A program made the translations under genes and the position numbers. Below, piece by piece: positions 21,467 through 37,968 of a stretch of DNA of 64,000 bases. This DNA is from Kyrpidia spormannii (lineage in GTDB: Bacteria > Bacillota > Bacilli > Kyrpidiales > Kyrpidiaceae), in the NCBI RefSeq assembly GCF_002804065.1, contig NZ_CP024955.1, positions 1,302,001 through 1,366,000 on the forward strand, read 5' to 3'. A model generated the notes under the pieces. That model made no database searches and had not been told where the DNA came from. It was given only the letters and a program-made list of their open reading frames with translations. The first letter of the stretch is position 1. Each line of letters opens with the position of its first letter.

Positions 21467-21541
21467 TCCTCGGTAGCTCAGTGGTAGAGCGTCCGGCTGT
21501 TAACCGGGTGGTCGCAGGTTCGAATCCTGCCCGGGGAGCCA
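21467..21541 (+). tRNA. tRNA-Asn (GTT)
   Basis: Full cloverleaf with anticodon GTT and encoded CCA. The 75-base sequence is identical to the copy at 51347-51421. Confidence 0.97.
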
Positions 21542-21546
21542 ATCCT

Positions 21547-21622
21547 GCTCCCATAGCTCAGTTGGTAGAGCGCATCCATGGTAAGGATGAGGTCACCAGT
21601 TCGAGCCTGGTTGGGAGCTCCA
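21547..21622 (+). tRNA. tRNA-Thr (GGT)
   Basis: Acceptor GCTCCCA/TGGGAGC; anticodon loop ATGGTAA; CCA encoded. Confidence 0.96.
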
Positions 21623-21666
21623 TACACGGGTTATATCGTCGTTTCTGGACCGGCGGTATAGCCCGG

Positions 21667-21742
<76 letters not shown>

Positions 21743-21745
21743 CAT

Positions 21746-21821
21746 GCCACCTTAGCTCAGTTGGTAGAGCACTTCACTCGTAATGAAGGGGTCGGCGGTT
21801 CGAGTCCGCCAGGTGGCTCCA
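21746..21821 (+). tRNA. tRNA-Thr (CGT)
   Basis: Acceptor GCCACCT/AGGTGGC; anticodon loop CTCGTAA; CCA encoded. Second threonine isoacceptor of the array. Confidence 0.96.
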
Positions 21822-21825
21822 TGAT

Positions 21826-21910
21826 GGAGGGGTACCAAAGCGGTCAACTGGGGCGGACTGTAAATCCGTTGGCGTAGCCTTCGTAGGTTCGAATCCTACC
21901 CCCTCCACCA
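21826..21910 (+). tRNA. tRNA-Tyr (GTA)
   Basis: Class II tRNA with long variable arm; anticodon loop CTGTAAA; CCA encoded. Confidence 0.96.
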
Positions 21911-21982
21911 GAGGTTGCCCGGCTGGGGTCGGCGACCGACGCGATACTGGGGAGACGGGCCTATTGGATGCGAGATCAGGTA

Positions 21983-22011
21983 TTGACGATTGATGCGTAA
22001 GGTGATAGAAT
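21983..22011 (+). promoter_or_regulatory. Internal promoter of the tRNA array
   Basis: TTGACG (21983-21988), a 17-base spacer and TAGAAT (22006-22011), 20 bases before tRNA-Leu, drive Leu-Gly-Cys independently of the first five tRNAs. Confidence 0.8.
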
Positions 22012-22031
22012 AAAGGTCGCCGTTGCAACCT

Positions 22032-22118
22032 GCGGACGTGGCGGAATTGGCAGACGCGCAAGATTCAGGTTCTTGTGGCCGCAAGGTCGTGGGGGTTCAA
22101 GTCCCTTCGTCCGCACCA
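22032..22118 (+). tRNA. tRNA-Leu (CAG)
   Basis: Class II tRNA; anticodon loop TTCAGGT; long variable arm; CCA encoded. Confidence 0.96.
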
Positions 22119-22119
22119 T

Positions 22120-22194
22120 GCGGAAGTAGCTCAGGGGTAGAGCATCGCCTTGCCAAGGCGAGGGCCGCGGGTTCGAATCCCGTCTTCCGCTCCA
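22120..22194 (+). tRNA. tRNA-Gly (GCC)
   Basis: Acceptor GCGGAAG/CTTCCGC; anticodon loop TTGCCAA; CCA encoded; one base after tRNA-Leu. Confidence 0.96.
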
Positions 22195-22199
22195 TAAGT

Positions 22200-22273
<74 letters not shown>

Positions 22274-22411
22274 ATCCCGGATTGTCCGAGCACTGAAACG
22301 GTGTGGGCCGAAAACTTGGCCATGCGGCAAGACTTGTTTCCAGTGGACCTTAAGTCTTAAACAGTTGATGAGGTTTTATGTTACGAAGACCTTTTTTCCC
22401 GGAATCAGCAT

Positions 22412-22443
22412 AGCGACTTCCTCAAAGGGGGTCGCTCTTTTCT
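22412..22443 (+). terminator. Intrinsic terminator
   Basis: AGCGAC and GTCGCT pair around a 13-base loop, followed by CTTTTCT. It lies about 140 bases after tRNA-Cys; the stretch between holds nothing else recognisable. Confidence 0.65.
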
Positions 22444-22519
22444 ATTATGGATGGTTTGGATGAACAACTGTGTCTAGAAATCGGGAAAGCCAAAAAGAGG
22501 GCAGTCGGGAGGTGTCCAA

Positions 22520-23064
22520 GGTGAGCTTGGATCCTAGGGTGCGCGAACTTTTGGACCAGATGGATTTTTCCGCGGTCACCCCCAAGGCGGGGGCCGATCC
22601 CGCCGCGCTTCTGCGAGACGAGGGAGTGCAGAGACATTGCCCCGGAAGAGGCGCCGTCGGTGGTAGCAGGATTTGTGCCCGTGTTGGACATGACGGCCGA
22701 AGATATTCTGCAGAAGAACCCGCGATTTTTAACCCGAGCCAAGAATTTCGACACCTTTTTCAGTTTTGGACCGGAACTTGTGACGGTGGATGAGGTTGAG
22801 GATCTCGCGGGATTGAAGGTAGGCACTTATCTAAACAGCCGATTGCACAGGGAAAACGTGGTGGCCAATATGATTTTTGACCCGTGGTTCCTCGTTTCCT
22901 TTCATTCCCGGGTCATGACCTTTGAGCCCGGGGATATTCTCTCCACCGGAACGCCCGGCGCGGCAGTCATCCGGCCGGGGGATCAAGTGGAATGCCGGAT
23001 CACAGGTTTTCTCCCCTTGGTCAATCCGGTGGGGCGGTACGAACCGGCACCTTCAAAGGTATAA
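22520..23064 (+). pseudogene. Composite remnant: esterase-like start joined to a fumarylacetoacetate-hydrolase end
   Basis: GTG 22520 follows GGAGGTGTCC and gives VSLDPRVRELLDQMDF, which resembles the start of alpha/beta-hydrolase esterases, for about 33 codons. After about 22615 the readable protein is in another frame: CRDIAPEEAPSVVAGFVPVLDM and on to the FAH-family C-terminal half (FDTFFSFGPELVTVDEV, MIFDPWFLVSFHSRVMTFEPGDILSTGTPGAAV). FAH proteins are about 250-300 residues, so the N-terminal half is lost. A deletion joining two former neighbours best explains this; the esterase identity is less sure than the FAH identity. Confidence 0.7.
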
Positions 23065-23072
23065 ACTGCCCG

Positions 23073-23101
23073 TTGACACCAGTCCTGTTTCGTGATACAA
23101 C
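23073..23101 (+). promoter_or_regulatory. Promoter of the Val-Arg tRNA pair
   Basis: TTGACA (23073-23078), a 17-base spacer and TACAAC (23096-23101), starting 9 bases after the pseudogene stop. Confidence 0.7.
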
Positions 23102-23159
23102 AATATGCGTACCCCGTTTTCGGGCGACCGAACGGCCCCGGGACAGGGCTGGGTATGAC

Positions 23160-23234
23160 GCGGCAGTAGCTCAGCGGGAGAGCACCACCTTGACGCGGTG
23201 GGGGCCACAGGTTCGATCCCTGTCTGCCGCACCA
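23160..23234 (+). tRNA. tRNA-Val (GAC)
   Basis: Acceptor GCGGCAG/CTGCCGC; anticodon loop TTGACGC; CCA encoded. Confidence 0.95.
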
Positions 23235-23241
23235 CAATCTT

Positions 23242-23318
23242 GTGCCCGTAGCTCAGCCGGATAGAGCGTCTGACTACGAATCAGAAGGCCGGGAGTTCGA
23301 ATCTCTCCGGGCACGCCA
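23242..23318 (+). tRNA. tRNA-Arg (ACG)
   Basis: Acceptor GTGCCCG/CGGGCAC; anticodon loop CTACGAA, where A34 is expected to become inosine; CCA encoded. Confidence 0.96.
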
Positions 23319-25591: not shown

Positions 25592-25643
25592 ATAGTACGA
25601 TTGAACTATTGATGATTTCTTTCAGAACATTTATAGTACAATC
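25592..25643. repeat. Pair of direct repeats between rocD and the hydrogenase locus
   Basis: ATAGTACGATT (25592-25602) and ATAGTACAATC (25633-25643) are near-identical and 41 bases apart, about four helical turns, in the divergent region. They may be regulator sites. The second copy overlaps a possible -10 element TACAAT, but no good -35 box was found at normal spacing. Confidence 0.4.
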
Positions 25644-25717
25644 ATCCTAGTCTATTGTTTCCTCAACTTGATCTCAGTCTCCATCCTCGACGAAATTATG
25701 GGAAAGGAGGGCGTGGT

Positions 25718-26314
25718 GTGGCGATGCGCGAAGCTTTGGAGATGACGGCGGATCCCCTTTTGGAGAAGCTGGACGATGTCGAAGTGCAGCGGGCATTGGT
25801 TGCGCTGCTCGACAGACTTCCGGAGTTGGTCGCTATGATCGATGGGGTGGAACGGGCAGCCCATTATGTGCGAGCCGCGGCCTCCGATGAAGGCAATCTC
25901 GAACGCTTTGCCGAGGCGATCCGCGAACCGGTTGACATGGTGAGTCAGAAGATTCGGCCAATGTTAGACGGCCAGGATATGCTGGAGGCTGCGACGGTTT
26001 TGCCAGCATGGCTTCGTCTGATGACCGAGATGGCCCATTCGGCGGACGCCATCTCCGCCGGGCTCAAAACGTTACGCCAACTGGAGCAGGCGGGGTTGCT
26101 CCGGGCGTTGCAGGCGTTGGGGGATGCGATTCGCCCGGGCGTTTTGGACGACTTGGTCCAAGTGGTGGGGCGTTCCATTCGGGAAGCTGATCAGGATACG
26201 ACGGTGATTTCGGTGTTTGGCATTCTGCGCATGTTGAAAGAGCCGGCGGTGCAGCGCCTGCTGCGGGTTGTGTCTACGATGTTGCGCAACTTGTCTGAAA
26301 ACCAAAAAAGTTGA
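25718..26314 (+). CDS. DUF1641 protein at the head of the hydrogenase locus
   Basis: A 198-residue, almost wholly helical protein without signal peptide or membrane span. Its C-terminal segment VISVFGILRMLKEPAVQRLLRVVSTML is the DUF1641 core, amphipathic enough to contact a membrane or partner. DUF1641 genes often sit beside formate dehydrogenase or hydrogenase genes; their role is unclear. GTG 25718 follows AAAGGAGG at 7 bases. hupS begins 73 bases downstream in the same direction with no terminator seen, so co-transcription is likely. Confidence 0.85.
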   Translation: MAMREALEMTADPLLEKLDDVEVQRALVALLDRLPELVAMIDGVERAAHYVRAAASDEGNLERFAEAIREPVDMVSQKIRPMLDGQDMLEAATVLPAWLRLMTEMAHSADAISAGLKTLRQLEQAGLLRALQALGDAIRPGVLDDLVQVVGRSIREADQDTTVISVFGILRMLKEPAVQRLLRVVSTMLRNLSENQKS

Positions 26315-26387
26315 GAACAATATCACCGTACTTGTCTGATTGTAGGCACCTTTACGGATCATCGATCTATCCATAGGGGGGAATCAC

Positions 26388-27407
26388 GTGGGACTGACGT
26401 TATTTTGGTTGCAGGCCCAGGCGTGCAGCGGCAACACCATGTCATTGCTCAACGCCGAAGAGCCGGATTTGACGGAATTCATCACCCGTTACGACGTGGA
26501 TGTGTTGTACCACCCCTCCCTATCGCCCATCTGGGGGGAGCAGGTGCACCGATTGCTTCGCCAATTGGCCAATGAAGAAATCAAGCTCGATATTTTCGTC
26601 GTGGAAGGGGCCATTCCCCTTGGGCCGAATGGGACGGGGTTGTACAACACCTTTGCCGACCGCCCCATTAAGGACATCGTGCAGGAACTGGCGGCTGTGG
26701 CGGAATACGTGGTGGCGGTGGGCGATTGCGCCACCCACGGGGGATTTCCGGCCATGGATCCGAATCCCACCGATGCCGTGGGGCTTCAATACTTAAATAA
26801 ACAGCACGGGGGTCTTCTCGGGGCCGAGTATCGATCCCGGGCGGGGTTGCCCGTGGTGAACATCACCGGCTGTCCGGCTCATCCGGACTGGCAGTTGCAG
26901 ACCTTGATGGCTATTGCCGAGGGGCTCGGGCCGCTCCTCGAATTGGACGAATATGCGCGTCCACGGGCTTTCTATGGAAAGATGACCCACACGGGGTGCA
27001 CCAATAACGAGTACTACGACCACAAACATTCCGTAAAGAGTTTCACGCAACAAGGTTGTCTCTTCTTTGACAAAGGCTGCCGGGGACCGTACACGCATTC
27101 GGACTGCAACGTGCGGTTGTGGAATCGGCAATCGAGCAAGACCCGGGTGGGATCACCGTGTCTCGGATGTACGGACATCGGGTGGCCCAACGAGAACTAT
27201 TCGGTGGAGCGGCCTTTTTATAGCCGGGAGCAGTTGACCCCGATGCGGGAAGATTCCCGGGTTCTGCCCTATGGCCTCGGGAAGATCTTCAGTTATGTGG
27301 CGACTCCGGCGGAACTGGAAGAGCGAAAGGTGCTCTTCAGTCCTGAGGTGGATCGTCGGCCCCAAAATCTGGTGGGGATTGAAGAGATCAAGGTGCTGAG
27401 CGACTGA
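26388..27407 (+). CDS. hupS: [NiFe] hydrogenase small subunit (group 2a-like)
   Basis: Electron-transfer subunit of an uptake hydrogenase, 339 residues. It starts directly with LTLFWLQAQACSGNTMSLLNAEEP and lacks a Tat signal, so the enzyme is cytoplasmic, as in group 2. Cysteines for the proximal cluster (ACSGN, GDCATHGG, ITGCPAHP) and for the medial and distal clusters (CTNNEYYDH, CLFFDKGCRGP, CLGCTDIGWP) are in place. ATG/GTG 26388 follows AGGGGGGAA. hupL follows after 42 bases. The group assignment is from motif similarity to HupS-type proteins, not from a tree. Confidence 0.95.
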   Translation: MGLTLFWLQAQACSGNTMSLLNAEEPDLTEFITRYDVDVLYHPSLSPIWGEQVHRLLRQLANEEIKLDIFVVEGAIPLGPNGTGLYNTFADRPIKDIVQELAAVAEYVVAVGDCATHGGFPAMDPNPTDAVGLQYLNKQHGGLLGAEYRSRAGLPVVNITGCPAHPDWQLQTLMAIAEGLGPLLELDEYARPRAFYGKMTHTGCTNNEYYDHKHSVKSFTQQGCLFFDKGCRGPYTHSDCNVRLWNRQSSKTRVGSPCLGCTDIGWPNENYSVERPFYSREQLTPMREDSRVLPYGLGKIFSYVATPAELEERKVLFSPEVDRRPQNLVGIEEIKVLSD

Positions 27408-27449: not shown

Positions 27450-29051
27450 ATGTCCGTGGCGGAAGGAGCCCAGATGTCGGCGGCAAAAACAAAGGGGCAG
27501 CAGCGAATTCGGATCAGCCCGGCCGGTCGGGTGGAGGGCGATCTGGATTTTGAAGTTGACATTAAAGACGGCCGGGTCACCCGAGCTGAGGCCCGGGCGG
27601 TGATGTTCCGGGGGTTCGAAAAGATCCTTAAAGGGAAAGATTCATGGCTCGGCATTACCATGACGCCCCGGATTTGTGGAATCTGCGGGATCGGGCACAT
27701 CACCAGCGCCGTCAAACTGGTGGATATGGCCAGCGGCAACGGGATCGGCGGGGTGGATCTACCGATTCAGGCCAGGATCGTGCGCAATATCGTCGGATCG
27801 ACGGAGAGCCACATGAGCGGGATCCGGCATCATTGGTTGCTGTTCGGGCCGGATATGGTTAACGAAGCTTACTCCGGGTGGAGTGAGTACGAGAAGCTCA
27901 AGGAGCGCATGCAACCCTTTACGGGGACCTCGTACCGAGCCGCGGTGGCCTGGTCGAAAAAGGCCGTGGAAATCACCGCGATTTTTGCCGGTCAACAGCC
28001 GCATCCCGCCTCCTTTGTCCCCGGCGGTGTGACCAGCAGCCCGACCCTTGGGGATATCACCAAATCCCTGGGCATTTTGCAAGATGTCCGGGAACATTTT
28101 ATCGAAAAGCATATTTTGCACGGGAAATTAGAGGATTACCTAGCGATCCGCACTTGGGAGGACCTCCAGGAATGGCTCGGCCGCGGGGATCACGAAGACA
28201 GTGACCTGGGGTTGTTCATCCGGCAAGCCCTGCATTTCGGCTGGCACACCTGGGGCCGGGGAACGGGGTATTTTCTTGGGTACCCCTCTTACGAGACGGA
28301 GCCGGGCCAGTTTTGGTATCCGGGTGGTTTGTACTCCAGCGCCTTCATGTACAATGGCACGTACGAGCCCGTGGGGGATCCGCTGGAGTTCCAACAGCAG
28401 ATCATGGAGCACCACGCCCACTCCTTCTATCAGGGCGAGGGACCGTTCCACCCGTCCCAGGGGCAGACCGAGCCGATTGCTGATCTCCAGAATCCGGGGG
28501 ACAAATATTCCTTTGCCAAGGCGCCCCGGTTCCGGGGGCTGGCGGTGGAGGTGGGACCCTTCGCCCGGTTGCTCACTCAGGGAGATCCCCTGATCCGGGA
28601 TATGGAGAAGAAACTCGGTCCCAGCGTGTTTTTGCGCCAGTTCGCCCGGATTCACGAAATTATGACCGGGCATGTGGTCATTCGGGATTGGATTAAATCC
28701 GTTCATCCTAAAGGACCCTTTTACCGGGAAACGCCCCGATTGGTCAAAGATGGGATGTTTTTCGGCTGGCACGAGGTGCATCGGGGAGCTTTGGCCCACT
28801 GGGCGGAATTCAAAGATAACCGGATCGTGAACTACCAGATCATTGCACCGACTACCTGGAATATCGGCCCCCGGGACGCCTTGGATCAGCCCGGAGCCGT
28901 GGAGCAGACGGTGATGGACATCCCGGTGGAGGACCCGACCAATCCCGTGGGCTTGCAGCATGCCCTGCGGTCTTACGACCTGTGCCTGGTCTGCACGGTG
29001 CACGCCGTGCAGGGCGGCCGGGAGGTCCAGCGGTTCACCTTGGGGTTGTGA
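27450..29051 (+). CDS. hupL: [NiFe] hydrogenase large (catalytic) subunit
   Basis: Carries the Ni-Fe active site that splits H2; 533 residues. N-terminal motif RICGICGIGH supplies two cysteine ligands; the C-terminal pair is in DLCLVCTVH, where the family usually has DPCxxCxxH. The 15 residues after that His (AVQGGREVQRFTLGL) are the expected extension removed by the maturation protease encoded next. ATG 27450 almost touches GGGGAGG; GTG 27456 has better spacing and ATG 27474 has its own GGAAGGAG, so the start is uncertain by a few codons. Confidence 0.96.
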   Translation: MSVAEGAQMSAAKTKGQQRIRISPAGRVEGDLDFEVDIKDGRVTRAEARAVMFRGFEKILKGKDSWLGITMTPRICGICGIGHITSAVKLVDMASGNGIGGVDLPIQARIVRNIVGSTESHMSGIRHHWLLFGPDMVNEAYSGWSEYEKLKERMQPFTGTSYRAAVAWSKKAVEITAIFAGQQPHPASFVPGGVTSSPTLGDITKSLGILQDVREHFIEKHILHGKLEDYLAIRTWEDLQEWLGRGDHEDSDLGLFIRQALHFGWHTWGRGTGYFLGYPSYETEPGQFWYPGGLYSSAFMYNGTYEPVGDPLEFQQQIMEHHAHSFYQGEGPFHPSQGQTEPIADLQNPGDKYSFAKAPRFRGLAVEVGPFARLLTQGDPLIRDMEKKLGPSVFLRQFARIHEIMTGHVVIRDWIKSVHPKGPFYRETPRLVKDGMFFGWHEVHRGALAHWAEFKDNRIVNYQIIAPTTWNIGPRDALDQPGAVEQTVMDIPVEDPTNPVGLQHALRSYDLCLVCTVHAVQGGREVQRFTLGL

Positions 29052-29067
29052 GGGGTCTAAAGCGAGG

Positions 29068-29550
29068 ATGTTGCAGCCGATCCACATGATTTTCTTGGGC
29101 AATCCCTTGTGGGGAGATGACGGGGCGGGGACATACCTGCTCCGTCGTTTCTCTCGTCTTCGGGAATCCCGGGGGAGTTTGTCTCGTCAAGGTCGACCCG
29201 TGGTGCTGATCGATGGGGGAACGGGGGGATTGAATTTGCTTAATGCCTTCGATGGGGCCGGACGCATTGAGGTGTTCGATGCGGTGCAGAGTGGGGGGCA
29301 CCCTGGGGAGGTGTACCGGATTCCGGGAAGGCAGGTGGAGTTCTGGCCGGCCCGGTCCTCCCACGATTTCGGCATTGAGCAGGTGATTCGCCTGTACTGC
29401 GAGATCAGCCCGGATCCTCTGGATCTCGATGATATCGTACTCTATGGGATTGAAGTCAAAGGCCTTGAGTTCGGGGAGTCTTTGTCGCCACCCGTCCAAC
29501 AGGCCTGCGATCGATTGTTCAACCGCCTCGTGGAGGAGCTTGATCCGTGA
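29068..29550 (+). CDS. hupD: Hydrogenase maturation endopeptidase (HybD/HupD family)
   Basis: Ni-dependent protease that removes the C-terminal tail of the large subunit after cofactor insertion. 160 residues. Conserved parts are FLGNPLWGDDGAGTYLLRRF with the metal-binding acidic residue, LIDGGTGGLNLL, and SSHDFGIEQVI with the conserved His. ATG 29068 lies 17 bases after hupL. The end overlaps the next gene by 4 bases (GTGA). Confidence 0.92.
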   Translation: MLQPIHMIFLGNPLWGDDGAGTYLLRRFSRLRESRGSLSRQGRPVVLIDGGTGGLNLLNAFDGAGRIEVFDAVQSGGHPGEVYRIPGRQVEFWPARSSHDFGIEQVIRLYCEISPDPLDLDDIVLYGIEVKGLEFGESLSPPVQQACDRLFNRLVEELDP

Positions 29551-29978
29551 AGAAAGACACATGGCATGGGTGGGTGGAAGAGTATCTCGCCGGGGGGGAG
29601 TTTGCGGGGGGATACGGAAGGCCGGAGCGAACGGATGAAGATGGGGCATGGGTAAGGGCGCGGGAGACGCTAGGTGCTTGGCTGGCAGGACATGTTGAAG
29701 AGGTCGCCGGGGAGGAACCCGATAGGGGGAAGTTGCGCGAATCTGTTGAGGAGATGCTGTACCGATTGGCGCTCTCCGGGGCGGGGAGCGCGGAATTGGA
29801 TCGGCACCTCGGGGTGCTCAAGGCGTTCTCCGCCTGGTGCGTTGCCGCGGGAAAGTTGTCCTTCGATTTTGCCGGTGACATTCCCTGGATAGGTGAAACG
29901 GATCCCGGACTTGTCGCGCATATTCGCGGAAAATGGGCTTTGAACGATCGATTTTATGGCATCGAGGAGAATGGTTGA
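29547..29978 (+). CDS. Unknown hydrogenase-operon protein (143 aa)
   Basis: GTG 29547 overlaps the protease stop, so it is translationally coupled into the operon. The product is acidic and helical (GKLRESVEEMLYRLALSGAG, ELDRHLGVLKAFSAWCVAAGKL), with one cysteine and a Trp/Phe-rich tail (WALNDRFYGIEENG). No membrane helix, signal peptide or metal motif is visible. I recognise no hup, hox or hyp family. Its place between the protease and hypC suggests an assembly, stability or interaction role, which is inference only. Confidence 0.8.
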   Translation: MKKDTWHGWVEEYLAGGEFAGGYGRPERTDEDGAWVRARETLGAWLAGHVEEVAGEEPDRGKLRESVEEMLYRLALSGAGSAELDRHLGVLKAFSAWCVAAGKLSFDFAGDIPWIGETDPGLVAHIRGKWALNDRFYGIEENG

Positions 29979-29993
29979 AGGGAGGGATTCGGG

Positions 29994-30254
29994 ATGTGTT
30001 TGGCAGTACCGGGGCAAATCCTGTCCATCGAAGGGGAAGGGCGCACGGCCATGGTGGACATGGGCGGGGTGAAGCGACGGGTGAGTCTGGAGCTTTTGGA
30101 CGATGTCCGGGTGGGTCAATATGTGCTGGTGCACGTAGGGTTTGCCCTCCAAACGATCGACGAGGCCGAAGCCCGGGAGACCCTTGAGATACTGGAAACG
30201 TATTTTCGAGAGGAGTTGGAGGCGGAGACGGGAGGAGGTGATCCGAGGGGATGA
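29994..30254 (+). CDS. hypC: Hydrogenase assembly chaperone HypC
   Basis: Small chaperone of 86 residues that carries the Fe(CN)2CO unit with HypD and delivers it to the large subunit. The N-terminal MCLAVPGQIL contains the essential Cys2. The mid-section MVDMGGVKRRVSLELLDDVRVGQYVLVHVGFAL is typical. ATG follows GGGAGGGATTCGGG. It overlaps hypD by 4 bases. Confidence 0.96.
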   Translation: MCLAVPGQILSIEGEGRTAMVDMGGVKRRVSLELLDDVRVGQYVLVHVGFALQTIDEAEARETLEILETYFREELEAETGGGDPRG

Positions 30255-31369
30255 AGTACGTCGACGAGTATCGGGACCCGGCGATGGCCGAACATCTGAT
30301 TGAGGAGATCAGAAGACTGGCTGAGGAGCCGATTTCCATCATGGAGATCTGCGGCGGGCACACCCATGCGATTTTTCGCGCGGGGATCGACCAAGTGCTG
30401 GAGCCGCAGATTCGTTTTCTCCACGGTCCCGGATGTCCGGTATGCGTGACGCCCATTGAAAAAATCGATCGCGCCATTGCCCTGGCCAGGCGACCGAAGA
30501 CGATCATCGCCACCTACGGGGATATGTTGCGGGTGCCGGGGTCTGAGTCGACACTCCTGAAGGAGAAGGCCAAGGGCGCCCAGGTCAAAATGGTCTATTC
30601 CAGTCTTGATGCCGTGGCCTTGGCGGAAAAACACCCGGACTTCGAAGTGGTGTTTTTTGCGGTGGGGTTTGAGACGACCATTCCGGCCAATGGCTTCAGC
30701 ATTTTGCGCGCCCGGGAGCTGGGTCTTCGGAACTATTCCGTGTTGTGTAACCACGTTTTGGTTCCGCCGGTGATCCGGTTTTTGCTGGAGGATCCGGATG
30801 TGCAAATCGATGCCTTCATCGGCCCCGGTCACGTGGGGACGGTGGTGGGCAGTGAAGATTACCGGTTTATTGCAGAAGAGTTTGGCCGGCCGGTGGTGAT
30901 CTCCGGCTTTGAGCCCAACGATATTCTCCAGTCGGTGTACATGATTCTCAAACAGCGTCAAGAAGGGCGTCGCCAAGTGGAGATCCAGTACTCCCGGGCG
31001 GTGAAGCCCGAGGGCAATGTCCGGGCCCGGGCTGTCCTCAACCGGATTTTTGAGCCCGTGGATCAAGAGTGGCGGGGCATCGGGACGATCCCTCGAAGCG
31101 GAATGGCGATCCGGGAGGAGTTTCGGGACTACGATGCGGAATTTAAGTTTCAATCGGCGCTCACCCTCTCCCCGGCCCAGGAATCCCCGGCTTGCATTTG
31201 CGGAGAGATCACAAAAGGTGTGAAAGAGCCCTGGCAGTGCGAATCCTTTGGCACGGCTTGCACTCCGGACAATCCCATCGGGACCTGCATGGTGTCTTCG
31301 GAAGGGACGTGTGCCGCTTATTACAAATATCAGTTTCTAAAACGGGCGGCAGGAGGGATGTTGGGCTGA
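30251..31369 (+). CDS. hypD: Hydrogenase formation protein HypD
   Basis: Iron-sulfur scaffold for assembly of the Fe(CN)2CO group, 372 residues. Motifs: EICGGHTHAI, LHGPGCPVCVTP, VGFETTIPAN, and the C-terminal cysteine set CICGEI, WQCESFGTACTPDNPIGTCMV and EGTCAAYY that holds a [4Fe-4S] cluster. The ATG overlaps the hypC stop, and the stop overlaps the hypE start by one base. Confidence 0.97.
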   Translation: MKYVDEYRDPAMAEHLIEEIRRLAEEPISIMEICGGHTHAIFRAGIDQVLEPQIRFLHGPGCPVCVTPIEKIDRAIALARRPKTIIATYGDMLRVPGSESTLLKEKAKGAQVKMVYSSLDAVALAEKHPDFEVVFFAVGFETTIPANGFSILRARELGLRNYSVLCNHVLVPPVIRFLLEDPDVQIDAFIGPGHVGTVVGSEDYRFIAEEFGRPVVISGFEPNDILQSVYMILKQRQEGRRQVEIQYSRAVKPEGNVRARAVLNRIFEPVDQEWRGIGTIPRSGMAIREEFRDYDAEFKFQSALTLSPAQESPACICGEITKGVKEPWQCESFGTACTPDNPIGTCMVSSEGTCAAYYKYQFLKRAAGGMLG

Positions 31370-32409
31370 TGGAGGAACGACGGACGCCACCTCGGGCGCA
31401 TACCCTTCCGGAAACCATTCAGTTGGCTCATGGAACCGGGGGGCGCCTGACCCACCAACTGATCGAACAATTGTTTCTGGAATATTTTAGAAATCCATAC
31501 TTGGAAGGGATGAATGACCAAGCGATTCTGCCCGGAGAAGGGGGGCGCTTGGCCATGTCCACGGACGCTTTTGTGGTGAAACCGTATCGTTTTCCCGGCG
31601 GCAATATCGGCGACCTGGCCGTCAATGGCACGGTGAACGACCTGGTGGTCGGGGGAGCGACCCCACTTTATCTGAGTGCTTCGTTTATCTTGGAAGAAGG
31701 GTTGCCGGTCCGGGATTTGGTTGAAGTGGTGGAGTCTATGGCAGCGGCGTCCGCGGTGGCCGGGGTACAGGTGGTGACCGGGGACACGAAGGTGGTGGAG
31801 AGAGGTTCTGCGGACGGGCTGTACATCACCACCTCCGGGATCGGTCGGATCCCGGAAGGGATCGACTGGGGACCGCACCGGATCCGGGAAGGGGATGTGG
31901 TGATCCTTTCCGGCAGTGTCGGAGACCACGGAGCCAGCGTGATGATCGAACGATTCGAGATGGAATTCGACACCCAGATTGAAAGCGATACCGCTTGTTT
32001 GCGGGATTTGGTGGAAGCGGTGCGGGATGTTCCCGGGATTCGCTGCATGCGGGATCCCACCCGAGGAGGGCTCGCGACGACCCTGAACGAGTTGTCCCAA
32101 AGCAGCGGGTTGAATCTGCGCATTCGGGAACGGGACGTACCGATCCGGGATGAGGTGCGGGGGCTTTGCGAGGCCCTGGGGATTGATCCGCTTTATGTGG
32201 CCAACGAAGGGAAGCTCGTGTGTGTGGTGGCGCCGGAAGAGGCCGAAGAGGTGGTCCGGAGGATGAGGCGGGTCAAGGAAGGGCGCGAGGCGCGTATCAT
32301 CGGGGAAGTCACCGGGGAGCTCCCGGGGTTGGCGAGCCTTGAGACTCTCTTGGGTGCGGTGCGGGTGTTGGATCTGTTGGCGGTGGAGCAACTGCCGCGA
32401 ATCTGCTGA
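31369..32409 (+). CDS. hypE: Carbamoyl dehydratase HypE
   Basis: Converts the carbamoyl group placed on its C-terminal cysteine by HypF into a thiocyanate, the source of the cyanide ligands. 346 residues ending in the diagnostic PRIC. PurM-like ATP-binding features include LAHGTGGRLTHQLI, LAMSTDAFVV, and MRDPTRGGLATTLNEL. ATG 31369 overlaps the hypD TGA. Confidence 0.97.
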   Translation: MEERRTPPRAHTLPETIQLAHGTGGRLTHQLIEQLFLEYFRNPYLEGMNDQAILPGEGGRLAMSTDAFVVKPYRFPGGNIGDLAVNGTVNDLVVGGATPLYLSASFILEEGLPVRDLVEVVESMAAASAVAGVQVVTGDTKVVERGSADGLYITTSGIGRIPEGIDWGPHRIREGDVVILSGSVGDHGASVMIERFEMEFDTQIESDTACLRDLVEAVRDVPGIRCMRDPTRGGLATTLNELSQSSGLNLRIRERDVPIRDEVRGLCEALGIDPLYVANEGKLVCVVAPEEAEEVVRRMRRVKEGREARIIGEVTGELPGLASLETLLGAVRVLDLLAVEQLPRIC

Positions 32410-32424: not shown

Positions 32425-32808
32425 ATGCACGAGCTGAGCATTGCGGAGAGCATCGTGACCATTGCTGCGGAAGAAGCGGCCCGCCTGGGTTCCCGGGTTC
32501 GGTCGGCGGTGGTTCGGGTGGGGCGGTTGGTTCAGATCGAACCTGAGAATTTGCTTTTCTGCCTCGGCATCCTGCGGGAAGACCGGGAGGAGACCCGGGG
32601 GGCGGAGTTCACTATTGAAGAGGAGTCCCTTCAATTGTTGTGTCGCGAGTGTGGGCATAAAACTGTGACTTCTGAGGTGGTTTTTGCGTGCGCTGCGTGC
32701 CGGTCGTCCAAGGTGGACGTGGTGGCCGGCGATGCGTTGGAGATTTTGTCCATGGAGGTGGATGTCGGTGAAAGTGGATGTGAACCGGAGTGTCCTGGAA
32801 GCCAATAA
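32425..32808 (+). CDS. hypA: Hydrogenase nickel-insertion protein HypA
   Basis: Nickel metallochaperone of 127 residues that works with HypB. The N-terminus MHELSIAE provides the Ni-binding His2; the zinc site is CREC with CAAC. ATG 32425 follows GGTGGAGGGG and matches the family start exactly. It overlaps the start region of hypB by about 40 bases. Confidence 0.96.
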   Translation: MHELSIAESIVTIAAEEAARLGSRVRSAVVRVGRLVQIEPENLLFCLGILREDREETRGAEFTIEEESLQLLCRECGHKTVTSEVVFACAACRSSKVDVVAGDALEILSMEVDVGESGCEPECPGSQ

Positions 32809-33460
32809 TGAGATTGCGGAGCGGCTACGGGATACGTGGAGGAGCCGGGGCATTTTTGTGCTGAATCTGATCAGTTCACCGGGTTCCGGAAAGACCACCC
32901 TTCTGGAAAAGACGTTAGAAGGGCTAAAGGGGCGGATCAAGGCCGCGGTCCTGGTGGGGGACGTGCAAACGGACAATGACGCCCGGCGACTGGCGGGGCA
33001 TGGGGCGGAGGTCAAGCAGATCGTCACCGGCGGGACGTGCCACCTGGAGGCTCACATGATCGAAAAGCACCTCGAAGCGGTGGACGGGGAAGACCTGGAA
33101 CTTCTGATCATCGAAAATGTTGGAAACTTGGTCTGTCCGACCTCTTACGATCTCGGCGAGGACGGCAAGGTGGTGTTGGTCAGCGTGACGGAAGGTGAGG
33201 ACAAACCGCTCAAGTATCCGGCCATCTTCCACAAAGCGAGGTTGGCGCTGATCACCAAAACGGACCTGGCTCCCCATCTCGACTGCGATCTCGAAGAGTT
33301 GCGCCGCAACATCACTGCGGTGAATGGCCAAATTGAAGTGCTTGAAGTGTCTGCCCGCACGGGCCAGGGGATGGAGGGCTGGCTGGAGTGGATTCTCACC
33401 CGGGCGGCAGAAAAACGTGGTGTGGCACCCCGGGAATCGGAGGAAGGCGCCCGGGCATGA
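32768..33460 (+). CDS. hypB: Hydrogenase maturation GTPase HypB
   Basis: GTPase that drives nickel insertion, about 230 residues. The P-loop is SSPGSGKTTLLEKT, the metal-binding Cys lies in NLVCPTSYDLGE, and the specificity loop is ITKTDLAPH. There is no histidine-rich N-terminal nickel store. GTG 32768 is 9 bases after GGAGG; ATG 32762 is the alternative. The gene overlaps hypA and, by 4 bases, hypF. Confidence 0.95.
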   Translation: MKVDVNRSVLEANNEIAERLRDTWRSRGIFVLNLISSPGSGKTTLLEKTLEGLKGRIKAAVLVGDVQTDNDARRLAGHGAEVKQIVTGGTCHLEAHMIEKHLEAVDGEDLELLIIENVGNLVCPTSYDLGEDGKVVLVSVTEGEDKPLKYPAIFHKARLALITKTDLAPHLDCDLEELRRNITAVNGQIEVLEVSARTGQGMEGWLEWILTRAAEKRGVAPRESEEGARA

Positions 33461-35745
33461 CCGAGCGGGTGCGGGTGACAGTGGCGGGGACGGTGCAGGG
33501 GGTGGGGTTCCGCCCCTTCGTGTACCGCTTGGCCTCGGAGATAGGGCTCACGGGAGAAGTGTGTAACCGGGGGTCCATCGTCACCGTGGATGTGGAGGGG
33601 TGCGGTGGAGATCTTGCCCAGTTTTTGCGTCGACTTCAGAGCGAGGCTCCCCCGGCAGCCCGGATCGACGATCTCGGGGTGGAACGACTCCGCCCAGTGG
33701 GTTACCAAGATTTAAAAATTGTATCGTCCGAGGACGGAGACCGGGTTTCGTTTGGTATTCCGGCGGATTTAGCGATTTGTCCCGATTGTCTCCGGGACAT
33801 GGCGGAGCCAACCAGCCGCTACTATCGATATCCCTTTACGTCTTGCACCCAGTGCGGTCCCCGGTATACCGTGTCCAAGCGGCTGCCCTTCGACCGGGAG
33901 ACCACGGTAATGGAGGATTTTCCGCTTTGTCCGGAGTGTTTGCGGGACTACCGGGATCCGGGCTCCCGAAGGTTTCACGCCCAGACCACCGCCTGCCCCC
34001 GGTGCGGTCCGGTGTTGCGGTGGATTCCAGGTGAGGGGGGCGAGGGCGAGAAGACCGGGGAAGACGCCTTGAAGGCGGCCAAAGATGTCCTTCGTTCCGG
34101 GGGTGTCGTGGCCGTGCTCGGAATCGGCGGGTTTCACCTGGCCGTGAACGCCCTGAACGAGCAGGCGGTTCGCCGACTCCGGGTGAAAAAGCACAGACCT
34201 ACTAAACCCTTTGCCGTGATGATGAGCTCGGAGGCGGTGAAGGTACACTGCGTACCCAGTGCTGGAGAATGGCAGGCGCTGACGTCGGCGGTGCGGCCGA
34301 TTGTCCTTCTCCAAAAGCGCCCGGATTCGCCGGTGGCCGGCGAGGTGGCGCCCGGGATGGACCGGTTGGGCGTATTTCTCCCTTATACGGGGATTCAAGT
34401 GTTGCTCATGGAAGATGCGGATTTGTCCGCCTTGGTCATGACCAGCGGAAATCTCAGTGGGGAACCTCTTGCTTATGAGGTGGAAGACGGCCTGCGGCGC
34501 TTAGCTGGACTGGCGGAGGGATTTTTGGTCCACAACCGTCCGATTCTCCGGCCGGTGGATGATTCGGTTCTTTACGTGGACGGGGATGTCCCTCGGGTGA
34601 TACGGCGGGGTCGGGGTATGGTCCCGGAAGGGTTTCGGATTGGACGCCGGGACGAGGCTGCGCCCGTGGTGCTGGCGGTGGGCGGGGACCTCAAGAATGC
34701 CGTGGCGGTGGCGGCGAAGGGAAAATTATGGCTCAGCCCGCACATCGGGGACTTGGATTCGCCAAGGGCCCGGGAGGGTTTCCGACGCCAGATCGAATGG
34801 CAACTGGAAACTCTGGGGGTTGCCCCAGATGTGGTGGCTCACGATCTGCATCCCGGCTATGTCAGTACGGCGGAAGCCCTCGGGAATTGGGAGAAAACCT
34901 TGGGTGTCCAGCACCACCACGCCCATTTGGCGGCGGTCATCACCGAACACCGGGCGACGGGGCCAGTACTCGGCGTCATTCTAGACGGTACGGGCTATGG
35001 GGAAGATGGCGGAATCTGGGGCGGGGAGATGCTTCTTGGCGACTGTCGGTCGGTGCTGCGGATCGGGCATTTGGAACCCCTCCGAATGGTGGTGGGGGAT
35101 CAGGGGACCCGGGAACCGTGGCGGTTGGTGGTGAATTATTTCTATGCTTTAGACTTGTGGGACCGTTGGGCGGACTTTGTGGTCGACCGGCTCGGCATCC
35201 CGGCCCGGAGTTTGGAGGCTTTGATTCGGGTGCTGAAGAGCCGATACCCGGGCTATCGATCTTCCAGTGCCGGAAGGCTGTTTGATGTGGTGGGAGCTTT
35301 GGTGAGCCGGAGAACGGAGGCGACCTTTGAGGGAGAGTTGCCGATGGGTTTGGAGGCACAGGTAGACCCGGGCGTCAAAGAGCGATACAATTTTCATATA
35401 ACGGAGCGGGACGGCCGTTGGATGGTCTCGCCGGGGATCCTCGATGCAGTGTGTTGGGATTTAGCCGCCGGGCGACAGGATCGGGTGGCGACGAAGTTTC
35501 ACCGGGGATTCGCGGCGGCGTGGGCCGAAGCGGCATTCCGGGCGGCGACGCGGCATGGTGTGTCGACGGTCGCGGTGGGAGGTGGGGTTTGGCAGAACCG
35601 TTGGTTGTTGCGCTGGTTTGTGGAGGATCTAGAGAACCGGGGACTGCGGGTGCTCATCCCCAGGAGGTGGCCGGCGGGGGACGGGGGCCTGGCGGCCGGG
35701 CAGGCGGCTGTGGCTTTGGCCAAGTTGAGAGAAGGTGGAGGCTGA
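33457..35745 (+). CDS. hypF: Carbamoyltransferase HypF
   Basis: Makes the carbamoyl group for cyanide ligands from carbamoyl phosphate and transfers it to HypE. 762 residues in the standard order: acylphosphatase domain (GTVQGVGFRPFVYRLA), two C4 zinc fingers (CPDC..CTQCGP, CPEC..CPRCGP), a YrdC-like domain (LRVKKHRPTKPFAVMM), and a Kae1-like domain with VQHHHAHLAAVITEH and GGGVWQNRWL. ATG 33457 overlaps the hypB stop as ATGA. Last hyp gene of the run. Confidence 0.97.
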   Translation: MTERVRVTVAGTVQGVGFRPFVYRLASEIGLTGEVCNRGSIVTVDVEGCGGDLAQFLRRLQSEAPPAARIDDLGVERLRPVGYQDLKIVSSEDGDRVSFGIPADLAICPDCLRDMAEPTSRYYRYPFTSCTQCGPRYTVSKRLPFDRETTVMEDFPLCPECLRDYRDPGSRRFHAQTTACPRCGPVLRWIPGEGGEGEKTGEDALKAAKDVLRSGGVVAVLGIGGFHLAVNALNEQAVRRLRVKKHRPTKPFAVMMSSEAVKVHCVPSAGEWQALTSAVRPIVLLQKRPDSPVAGEVAPGMDRLGVFLPYTGIQVLLMEDADLSALVMTSGNLSGEPLAYEVEDGLRRLAGLAEGFLVHNRPILRPVDDSVLYVDGDVPRVIRRGRGMVPEGFRIGRRDEAAPVVLAVGGDLKNAVAVAAKGKLWLSPHIGDLDSPRAREGFRRQIEWQLETLGVAPDVVAHDLHPGYVSTAEALGNWEKTLGVQHHHAHLAAVITEHRATGPVLGVILDGTGYGEDGGIWGGEMLLGDCRSVLRIGHLEPLRMVVGDQGTREPWRLVVNYFYALDLWDRWADFVVDRLGIPARSLEALIRVLKSRYPGYRSSSAGRLFDVVGALVSRRTEATFEGELPMGLEAQVDPGVKERYNFHITERDGRWMVSPGILDAVCWDLAAGRQDRVATKFHRGFAAAWAEAAFRAATRHGVSTVAVGGGVWQNRWLLRWFVEDLENRGLRVLIPRRWPAGDGGLAAGQAAVALAKLREGGG

Positions 35746-35811
35746 AAACTTAGGCCAAAAGGCCTCGATGGTGCCACGGGATGTGGCAACAACTAGGGGG
35801 TGAAGGAACCG

Positions 35812-36858
35812 GTGAATGTGGGCGCGAAAACGTTGCAGAAGAAAGGAAGTTGGCTAGGGTACGGGACGGCGGTGGCCGCGTTGCACGCGGCCGGGATCGC
35901 CAGCCTGGCGGCCGTGGTTCCTGCTCACCCCACCTTGCTGGGGCTGGGATTACTTGCATATACCTTGGGCGTTCGCCACGCCTTCGACGCCGATCACATT
36001 GCTGCGATTGACAACACGGTTCGAAAACTCCTCCAGCAAGGAAGGAACCCGAGGGGAGTGGGGTTTTTTTTCTCCGTCGGCCATTCGACGGTGGTTTGCC
36101 TGATGGCGGTGGCGACAGCCTTGGCCGCGGGCTGGGCGATCCGGGCGATGCCGAGTCTACAAGCGGTGGGGGGCGTGATTGGGACCGCGGTGTCCGGGGG
36201 TTTTCTCCTGGTGCTCGGCGTCGTGAATCTCATGATTCTCATCCAAATTCTGCAGGTCTTCTTCCGGATGCGGAAGGGGGTGAACGAAGAAGGCCGGCTG
36301 GAAGAATTGCTCCACGCCCGGGGGTTGATCGCCCGGCTCGTCACCCCGCTCCTGCGGTTTGTCGGCCGCAGTTGGCATGTGTATCCGATCGGATTCCTAT
36401 TTGGCTTAGGCTTTGATACAGCCAGTGAGGTGTCGCTCATGGCTCTCTCGGCCGGGGCCGGGCAAAGTGGCCTCCCCGTTGTCGGGGTTTTGGCGTTGCC
36501 CCTCTTGTTTGCCGCGGGCATGAGTTTATTTGACACGGCGGACGGTATTTTCATGTCGGAAGCGTACTCCTGGGCGTTTCGCAATCCTGTGCGGAAGATT
36601 TATTACAACCTGACGGTGACAGGGCTAGCTGCGGCCGCAGCTCTGTTGATTGGATCGGTCGAACTCGTGCAGGTCGTTGCTTCCCACCTTCGCACGACAA
36701 GCGGATTTTGGACGCGGATTCAAGAACTGGATCTCGGATCCGTCGGCTATGTACTGGTGGTCTTGTTTGGGTTGGCATGGGCGTTATCCTATGGGGCATG
36801 GAAAGTGTTTCGCATTGAAGAACGGTGGGCTTTGCCTCAGGATAAGGTGCGGGATTGA
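35812..36858 (+). CDS. HoxN/NixA-family nickel permease
   Basis: High-affinity Ni2+ (or Co2+) uptake protein with about eight membrane helices, 348 residues. The signature RHAFDADHIAAIDN contains the HX4DH nickel motif; GLGFDTASEV and LFAAGMSLFDTADG are the other family motifs. GTG 35812 is 8 bases after TAGGGGGTGA; GTG 35800 is possible. It lies 66 bases after hypF, with two small hairpins (GGCCAAAAGGCC and GTGCCACGGG..GTGGCAAC) between them. The context argues for nickel as the substrate. Confidence 0.93.
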   Translation: MNVGAKTLQKKGSWLGYGTAVAALHAAGIASLAAVVPAHPTLLGLGLLAYTLGVRHAFDADHIAAIDNTVRKLLQQGRNPRGVGFFFSVGHSTVVCLMAVATALAAGWAIRAMPSLQAVGGVIGTAVSGGFLLVLGVVNLMILIQILQVFFRMRKGVNEEGRLEELLHARGLIARLVTPLLRFVGRSWHVYPIGFLFGLGFDTASEVSLMALSAGAGQSGLPVVGVLALPLLFAAGMSLFDTADGIFMSEAYSWAFRNPVRKIYYNLTVTGLAAAAALLIGSVELVQVVASHLRTTSGFWTRIQELDLGSVGYVLVVLFGLAWALSYGAWKVFRIEERWALPQDKVRD

Positions 36859-37619: not shown

Positions 37620-37696
37620 CGGAATGTAGCTCAGCTTGGTAGAGCGCACGGTTCGGGACCGTGAGGCCCAGGGTTCAAATCCCTGCATTCCGACCA
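37620..37696 (+). tRNA. tRNA-Pro (CGG)
   Basis: Acceptor CGGAATG/CATTCCG; anticodon loop TTCGGGA; CCA encoded. Confidence 0.96.
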
Positions 37697-37701
37697 GTGA
37701 T

Positions 37702-37786
37702 GTCGAAGTGGCGGAATCGGCAGACGCGCACGTTTGAGGGGCGTGTGGGGAAACCCGTGCGGGTTCAAGTCCCGCCTTCGACACCA
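37702..37786 (+). tRNA. tRNA-Leu (GAG)
   Basis: Class II tRNA; anticodon loop TTGAGGG; long variable arm; CCA encoded. Confidence 0.95.
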
Positions 37787-37787
37787 T

Positions 37788-37864
37788 CGGGACGTAGCGC
37801 AGCCTGGTAGCGCGCTACCTTGGGGAGGTAGAGGTCGCGGGTTCAAATCCCGCCGTTCCGACCA
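37788..37864 (+). tRNA. tRNA-Pro (GGG)
   Basis: Acceptor CGGGACG/CGTTCCG; anticodon loop TTGGGGA; CCA encoded. Confidence 0.96.
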
Positions 37865-37891
37865 AGTGCCCCAGGATGTTGGGGGCCCTGC

Positions 37892-37968
37892 GGGCCTATA
37901 GCTCAGTTGGCCAGAGCGCACGACTGATAATCGTGAGGTCAGTGGTTCAAGTCCACTTAGGCCCACCA
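37892..37968 (+). tRNA. tRNA-Ile (GAT)
   Basis: Acceptor GGGCCTA/TAGGCCC; anticodon loop CTGATAA; CCA encoded. Its last 22 bases are also the antisense of the cwlD 3' end. Confidence 0.96.

Follow-up and report, generated by a model that had tools for sequence, protein, structure and literature searches.

For soluble respiratory enzymes that lack membrane subunits, the route to the membrane quinone has so far been worked out case by case. In Mycobacterium smegmatis, HucM holds the hydrogenase Huc and connects it to the membrane, with tetramers of HucM that scaffold the enzyme and form a hydrophobic tube (PDB 7utd, 7uus; PMC10017518). Likewise, the molybdoenzyme ForC1 requires ForE1, the non-catalytic subunit of the soluble, menaquinone-reducing ForCE1, for the binding and retention of MK-7 and for the reduction of menadione (PDB 8rqz; PMC8808070). 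YjlC from Bacillus subtilis, whose partner is the NDH-2 flavoprotein YjlD (PDB 9pxk, 9snk), carries the PDB deposit name 'NDH-2 membrane coupling protein'; the name shows that the depositors see a membrane-coupling role for it, and they may also have made the link to HucM. A literature search that took in few subscription papers and no preprints returned no work linking HucM, ForE and YjlC as one family.

Sequence comparisons join the three proteins in the DUF1641 family (PF07849). HucM (7uus_Q, scored on the residues copied from a search alignment) reaches 23.7 bits for the Pfam model, whose cut-off is 21, its relatives in other actinobacteria reach 50–54 bits, and on a Mycobacterium intracellulare plasmid the gene in the hucM position carries the NCBI annotation DUF1641. 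A profile of 13 DUF1641 proteins from which actinobacteria were left out (profile A2) retrieved from the PDB YjlC (9e-24), HucM 7uus_Q (7e-9) and ForE1 (0.012), and a profile of nine Bacillota sequences, none of the HucM type, found the actinobacterial genes preceding hucS with E values of 3e-8 to 0.1.

The locus analysed here lies in a 64,000-nucleotide stretch of the Kyrpidia spormannii genome (the window) and opens with a gene for a DUF1641-family protein, at positions 25718–26314 of the forward strand, which we propose as a membrane- and menaquinone-coupling subunit. The frame is open from a GTG at 25718 (198 aa) or an ATG at 25724 (196 aa) to a TGA at 26312–26314, and we favour the GTG because an AGGAGG at 25706–25711 lies 6 nt before it. 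An earlier reading of the same DNA, made from the sequence only, had given this gene as 25718–26387; its start stands, whereas its end includes the 73 bp that separate the gene from the GTG start of hupS at 26388.

On the same strand follow the genes, assigned with Pfam, for the small (hupS, 26388–27407) and large (hupL, 27450–29051) subunits of a [NiFe] hydrogenase, the maturation protease hupD (28996–29550, start uncertain), X143 (29547–29978), hypC (29994–30254), hypD (30251–31369), hypE (31363–32409, start approximate), hypA (32425–32808), hypB (32684–33460, a listed start that overlaps hypA, the true one likely being later), hypF (33457–35745, start approximate) and a nickel transporter of the NicO family (35800–36858). 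The Pfam content of the operon includes no cytochrome b, FeS anchor or other membrane anchor gene, in agreement with the sequence-only reading. X143, of 143 aa, has no Pfam or NCBIfam match; a counterpart of similar size occupies the same place between hupD and hypC in a genome of another family, L177 (L177:4413-4817; E 2e-17), and it seems specific to the lineage of the window hydrogenase. Clusters of tRNA genes flank the hydrogenase region, at 21467–23318 and 37620–37968, and a tRNA-Ala call at 35847–35938, within the nickel transporter gene, is probably false.

A consensus scan placed a promoter-like site upstream of the operon (TTGATG-17-TATAGT, 25609–25637, forward strand), which is not above the chance count (two sites found, 2.3 expected in shuffles). 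Scans of this kind, performing no better than shuffles, showed neither a terminator nor a promoter between the DUF1641 gene and hupS, and the RNA fold of the gap had no structure beyond that of shuffles (z 1.49). The DUF1641 gene and hupS are likely to share a single transcript; a separate one, which the sequence-only reading had named as evidence against its proposal, found no sign in the consensus scan.

The Pfam DUF1641 model was borderline on the trimmed open reading frame (20.8 bits against a cut-off of 21) and exceeded the cut-off in the genome search (22 bits). Family membership is secure because of the family profiles and because phmmer matched the protein to YjlC, with E values of 2.9e-9 for 9snk, where both ends aligned, and 7e-9 for 9pxk. 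The protein contains no Cys, and none of its 19-mers reaches the hydrophobicity of a membrane span. Its net charge is -8 overall and +4 over the last 36 residues, and the helical moment peaks (0.75) in this basic amphipathic C-terminus. The AlphaFold2 model is helical and weak (38 rows, mean pLDDT 72, pTM 0.36, with a range of 62–72 across five models). Fold searches with this model, using Foldseek and VIA-align, returned generic helical bundles alone (best E 2.5; best Z 7.9, inside the tool's warning range), and the absence of HucM, YjlC and ForE1 from these matches is uninformative either way. We found no relatives in viral contigs. The open reading frame, the Pfam match, the model and the C-terminus all fit the description, from the sequence-only reading, of an amphipathic all-helical DUF1641 protein as the first gene product of the operon.

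Besides HupSL, no clear [NiFe] hydrogenase is encoded in the genome of 3,352,175 bases. The best solved match of HupS is HucS (1.9e-92; next 4.3e-35) and that of HupL is HucL (1.9e-109; next 1.9e-57), and this wide margin bears out the group 2a-like label given to it earlier. Huc is thus the nearest solved relative and the operon has no cytochrome partner gene; HupL itself is not nested in the 2a clade. In our trees, whose rows included no reference sequences of groups 2e and 2f (named in PMC7784904), the window HupL forms with those of L027 and L177 a single lineage (support 100) on a long stem, placed beside all 2a rows with SH-aLRT values of 87 and 94. L027 and L177 are nearly identical and were counted as one independent relative. 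The same outlying position outside the 2a tree was reported previously, with a HydDB classification as 2a, in a study where K. spormannii FAVT5 under H2 limitation highly expressed both of its hydrogenases, one of which is of the window type (PMC7248562).

The menaquinone in Huc lies by HucS residues Lys212, Tyr229 and Tyr301 (PMC10017518). We set this numbering by hand on the alignments, where Lys212 and Tyr229 lined up at an offset of one, which put Tyr301 on the conserved Tyr near the C-terminus; on this basis, HupS Lys213 and Tyr295 align with Lys212 and Tyr301, and Phe227 with Tyr229, which stacks on the menaquinone. The Lys and Tyr count in favour of the coupling role discussed below; the Phe, which a 2b/c-like relative also has, and a HupS C-terminus that differs from the HucS one count against it.

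The window protein resembles HucM in many respects: both belong to the DUF1641 family, are helical, lack Cys and have a basic C-terminal segment; both genes directly precede that of the small subunit; and both partners are cytoplasmic group 2a-type [NiFe] hydrogenases without cytochrome b. From the profile matches, homology at the family level can be claimed, which the sequence-only reading, in comparing the two, had not done. The part comparable to that of HucM that it suggested gains support from HucM scoring above the DUF1641 cut-off and being found by the family profile; the role itself is still argued by analogy.

The position before the small-subunit gene, as for actinobacterial hucM, the shared family and the similar length would also suit an orthologue of HucM with the same tetrameric scaffold and hydrophobic tube. 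We consider this improbable, because the window protein scores 79.7 bits with an NDH-2/SQR-type profile against 31.8 with a Huc-type one, and its two syntenic relatives score 59.1 against 33.1 and 61.3 against 30.2, whereas left-out Huc members gave 140–199 bits for the Huc type and 13–43 for the NDH-2/SQR type. A tree also placed the window protein and its two relatives inside the NDH-2/SQR set of 13 rows, and not with the Huc-linked DUF1641 proteins, with support of 99/95; a single hydrogenase-linked clade was rejected on this tree (AU test, p 0.0005), which we had pruned of five long rows by our own choice and extended with L177 and seven Huc rows, and was not rejected on the first tree, which kept the long-branch rows (p 0.208). 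The three hydrogenase-linked relatives grouped with support of 83/21 in the second tree, and the pair in the first with 99/91.

On these profiles and trees, the window DUF1641 protein is likely to belong to the YjlC/SQR branch and not to that of HucM, so that the earlier comparison with HucM holds for the family and not for the branch. The window protein lacks the motif RRGxxIxxS that HucM-type proteins carry after their second helix, and HupSL is a separate deep lineage; moreover, the tetramer and tube of HucM are known from a structure, whereas the window protein is known from its sequence. YjlC, the nearest solved sequence, shares with it the motifs QLPxL and FGxLRMLK(D/E)P and the lack of Cys, but is shorter, without the central ca. 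50–60 residues, and has a flavoprotein as partner. The DUF1641 proteins encoded beside SQR-like genes in Bacilli (L024, L025, L026, L131) are in the same branch, have the same length (183–195 aa) and also adjoin a quinone-linked enzyme, although again a flavoprotein. The similarity to ForE1, of the same family, is weak. We found no published experiment on the window DUF1641 protein or on these SQR-side proteins in our literature search.

No NDH-2 or SQR partner gene accompanies the window type; its neighbour is hupSL in three of three known cases. The DUF1641-hupS-hupL order is conserved in L027 and L177, and in the latter extends through hupD and X143 to the hyp genes. With an NDH-2 partner as the nearest solved relative, and with neither of the other two DUF1641 genes of the genome adjoining an NDH-2 gene, the window gene might be a chance neighbour of hupS that serves a different enzyme, for instance an NDH-2 from another locus. 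This is highly improbable, since the gene occupies the same place before hupS in L027 and L177, with gaps of about 25 bp, and both profiles and trees show the three members to be alike.

The association extends to other group 2 hydrogenases. At HucL loci whose sequence reaches far enough upstream, a DUF1641 gene precedes hucS in Bacillota (7/7), Actinomycetota (33/38), Chloroflexota (4/4) and Gemmatimonadota (1/1), and in Acidobacteriota it lies just past the distance limit; none was found in Bacteroidota (0/19), Cyanobacteriota (0/1) or alphaproteobacterial plasmids (0/2). In Bacilli genomes with a HupS relative, the cluster includes a DUF1641 gene in 19 of 21; this set shares some genomes with another one, and the two counts are therefore not additive. 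The Huc type accounts for 17 of these 19 clusters, in which DUF1641-hypA-hypB-hucS-hucL is the usual order; the remaining two, the window and L177, have the other type. We estimate that a family of up to four genes would lie within 3.5 kb of hucS by chance in roughly 1% of genomes of 3–4 Mb. The sequence-only reading had proposed a survey for co-occurrence beyond the genus, and this is clearly present in Bacillota, Actinomycetota and Chloroflexota.

By annotation, with incomplete gene tables, no DUF1641 gene appeared in the clusters of group 1 and of regulatory group 2b that we inspected, and most of the group 1 clusters contain a cytochrome b. The same contrast exists between the 1d and 2a operons of P. 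thermoglucosidasius, in which the Huc operon and its DUF1641 gene rise together at slow growth (PMC12976888).

Coupling can also be solved otherwise, because the 2a clusters of Bacteroidota and Proteobacteria and two group 2 clusters of Bacilli have no DUF1641 gene nearby. In these two Bacilli genomes (L189:6243-7208, L191:5662-6612), the group 2-type hydrogenase forms its own branch outside 2a. In alphaproteobacterial 2a clusters (L113:6671-7382, L114:6692-7343), two small unassigned genes, possibly another answer to the same coupling problem, lie between those for the large subunit and the protease. The DUF1641 proteins from Huc clusters in Chloroflexota, Acidobacteriota and Gemmatimonadota (L037:6945-7808, L063:7375-8304, L047:4439-5350, L083:4271-5320) are 287–349 aa long, and their N-terminal unit RLxxPxTxxxLxxLLDHAELLAF seems to be present twice. 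A related genome (L147:3897-8244, L148:3388-7950) contains a pair of Huc-type hydrogenases, and a separate HucM-type DUF1641 gene goes with each.

DUF1641 genes also accompany other enzymes. Among 16 loci from Bacillota genomes, 13 adjoin genes for NDH-2, formate dehydrogenase (FDH) or SQR-like proteins, the last called from scores of 246–358 bits against a type III SQR model, which fall short of that model's own cut-off, set for a selenoprotein subtype. We confirmed the NDH-2 at L133 by its match to YjlD (3.8e-177) and the FDH at L021 with TIGR01591, above cut-off. The window genome alone has three DUF1641 genes: one overlaps a ForC-type formate dehydrogenase gene (L021:9400-12937), another adjoins a sulfide:quinone reductase-like gene (L022:8706-10474) and the third precedes hupSL. 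Three DUF1641 genes (L130:4739-5392, L023:7710-8357, L129:4913-5548) have no quinone-linked enzyme as direct neighbour.

By analogy with its relatives, the window DUF1641 protein is probably a non-catalytic, cofactor-free subunit that brings HupSL to the menaquinone of the membrane. The adaptor would bind cytoplasmic HupSL, with its basic amphipathic C-terminal segment resting on the inner face of the membrane; a hydrophobic surface would lead menaquinone to the distal FeS cluster of HupS, where electrons from H2 would reduce it, and no cytochrome b would be needed. We infer the binding, the membrane contact, the quinone transfer and the oligomeric state of the complex. Its geometry may differ from the tetrameric scaffold and tube of HucM, with a compact anchor instead, because the protein comes from the YjlC/SQR branch.

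The protein could also be an assembly or stability factor for HupSL, a chaperone or an oligomerisation scaffold with no direct part in quinone access. Deletion of hucM leaves Huc active while the large oligomer is lost (PMC10017518), the activity of ForC1 with an artificial acceptor drops about 50-fold when ForE1 is missing (PMC8808070), and the DUF1641 gene shares its cluster with maturation genes. Such a factor is nevertheless unlikely: HucM, ForE1 and YjlC stay in the solved complexes (7uus, 8rqz and 9pxk, respectively), and the four enzymes that the family partners with are unrelated and have in common that they pass electrons to a quinone; one would not expect the distribution of a dedicated chaperone to track the acceptor.

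Two DUF1641 branches appear to be paired with group 2 hydrogenases. The Huc type is confined in the HupL tree to the Bacillota-Actinomycetota-Chloroflexota part of 2a and, taken with the branch assignment of the window protein, this makes two separate pairings the simplest reading, although one type may instead have replaced the other. We lean towards the view that DUF1641 proteins are general, exchangeable menaquinone-coupling subunits of soluble dehydrogenases of H2, formate, sulfide and NADH. On this view, group 2 hydrogenases gained such a subunit on two or more occasions: the Huc clade took up the HucM type, and the K. spormannii lineage independently took up the YjlC/SQR type. If one family unites HucM, ForE and YjlC, a single mechanism would become testable across four enzyme classes, DUF1641 genes would serve as a marker of menaquinone-linked soluble dehydrogenases, and swapping adaptors from one enzyme to another would be a direct test.
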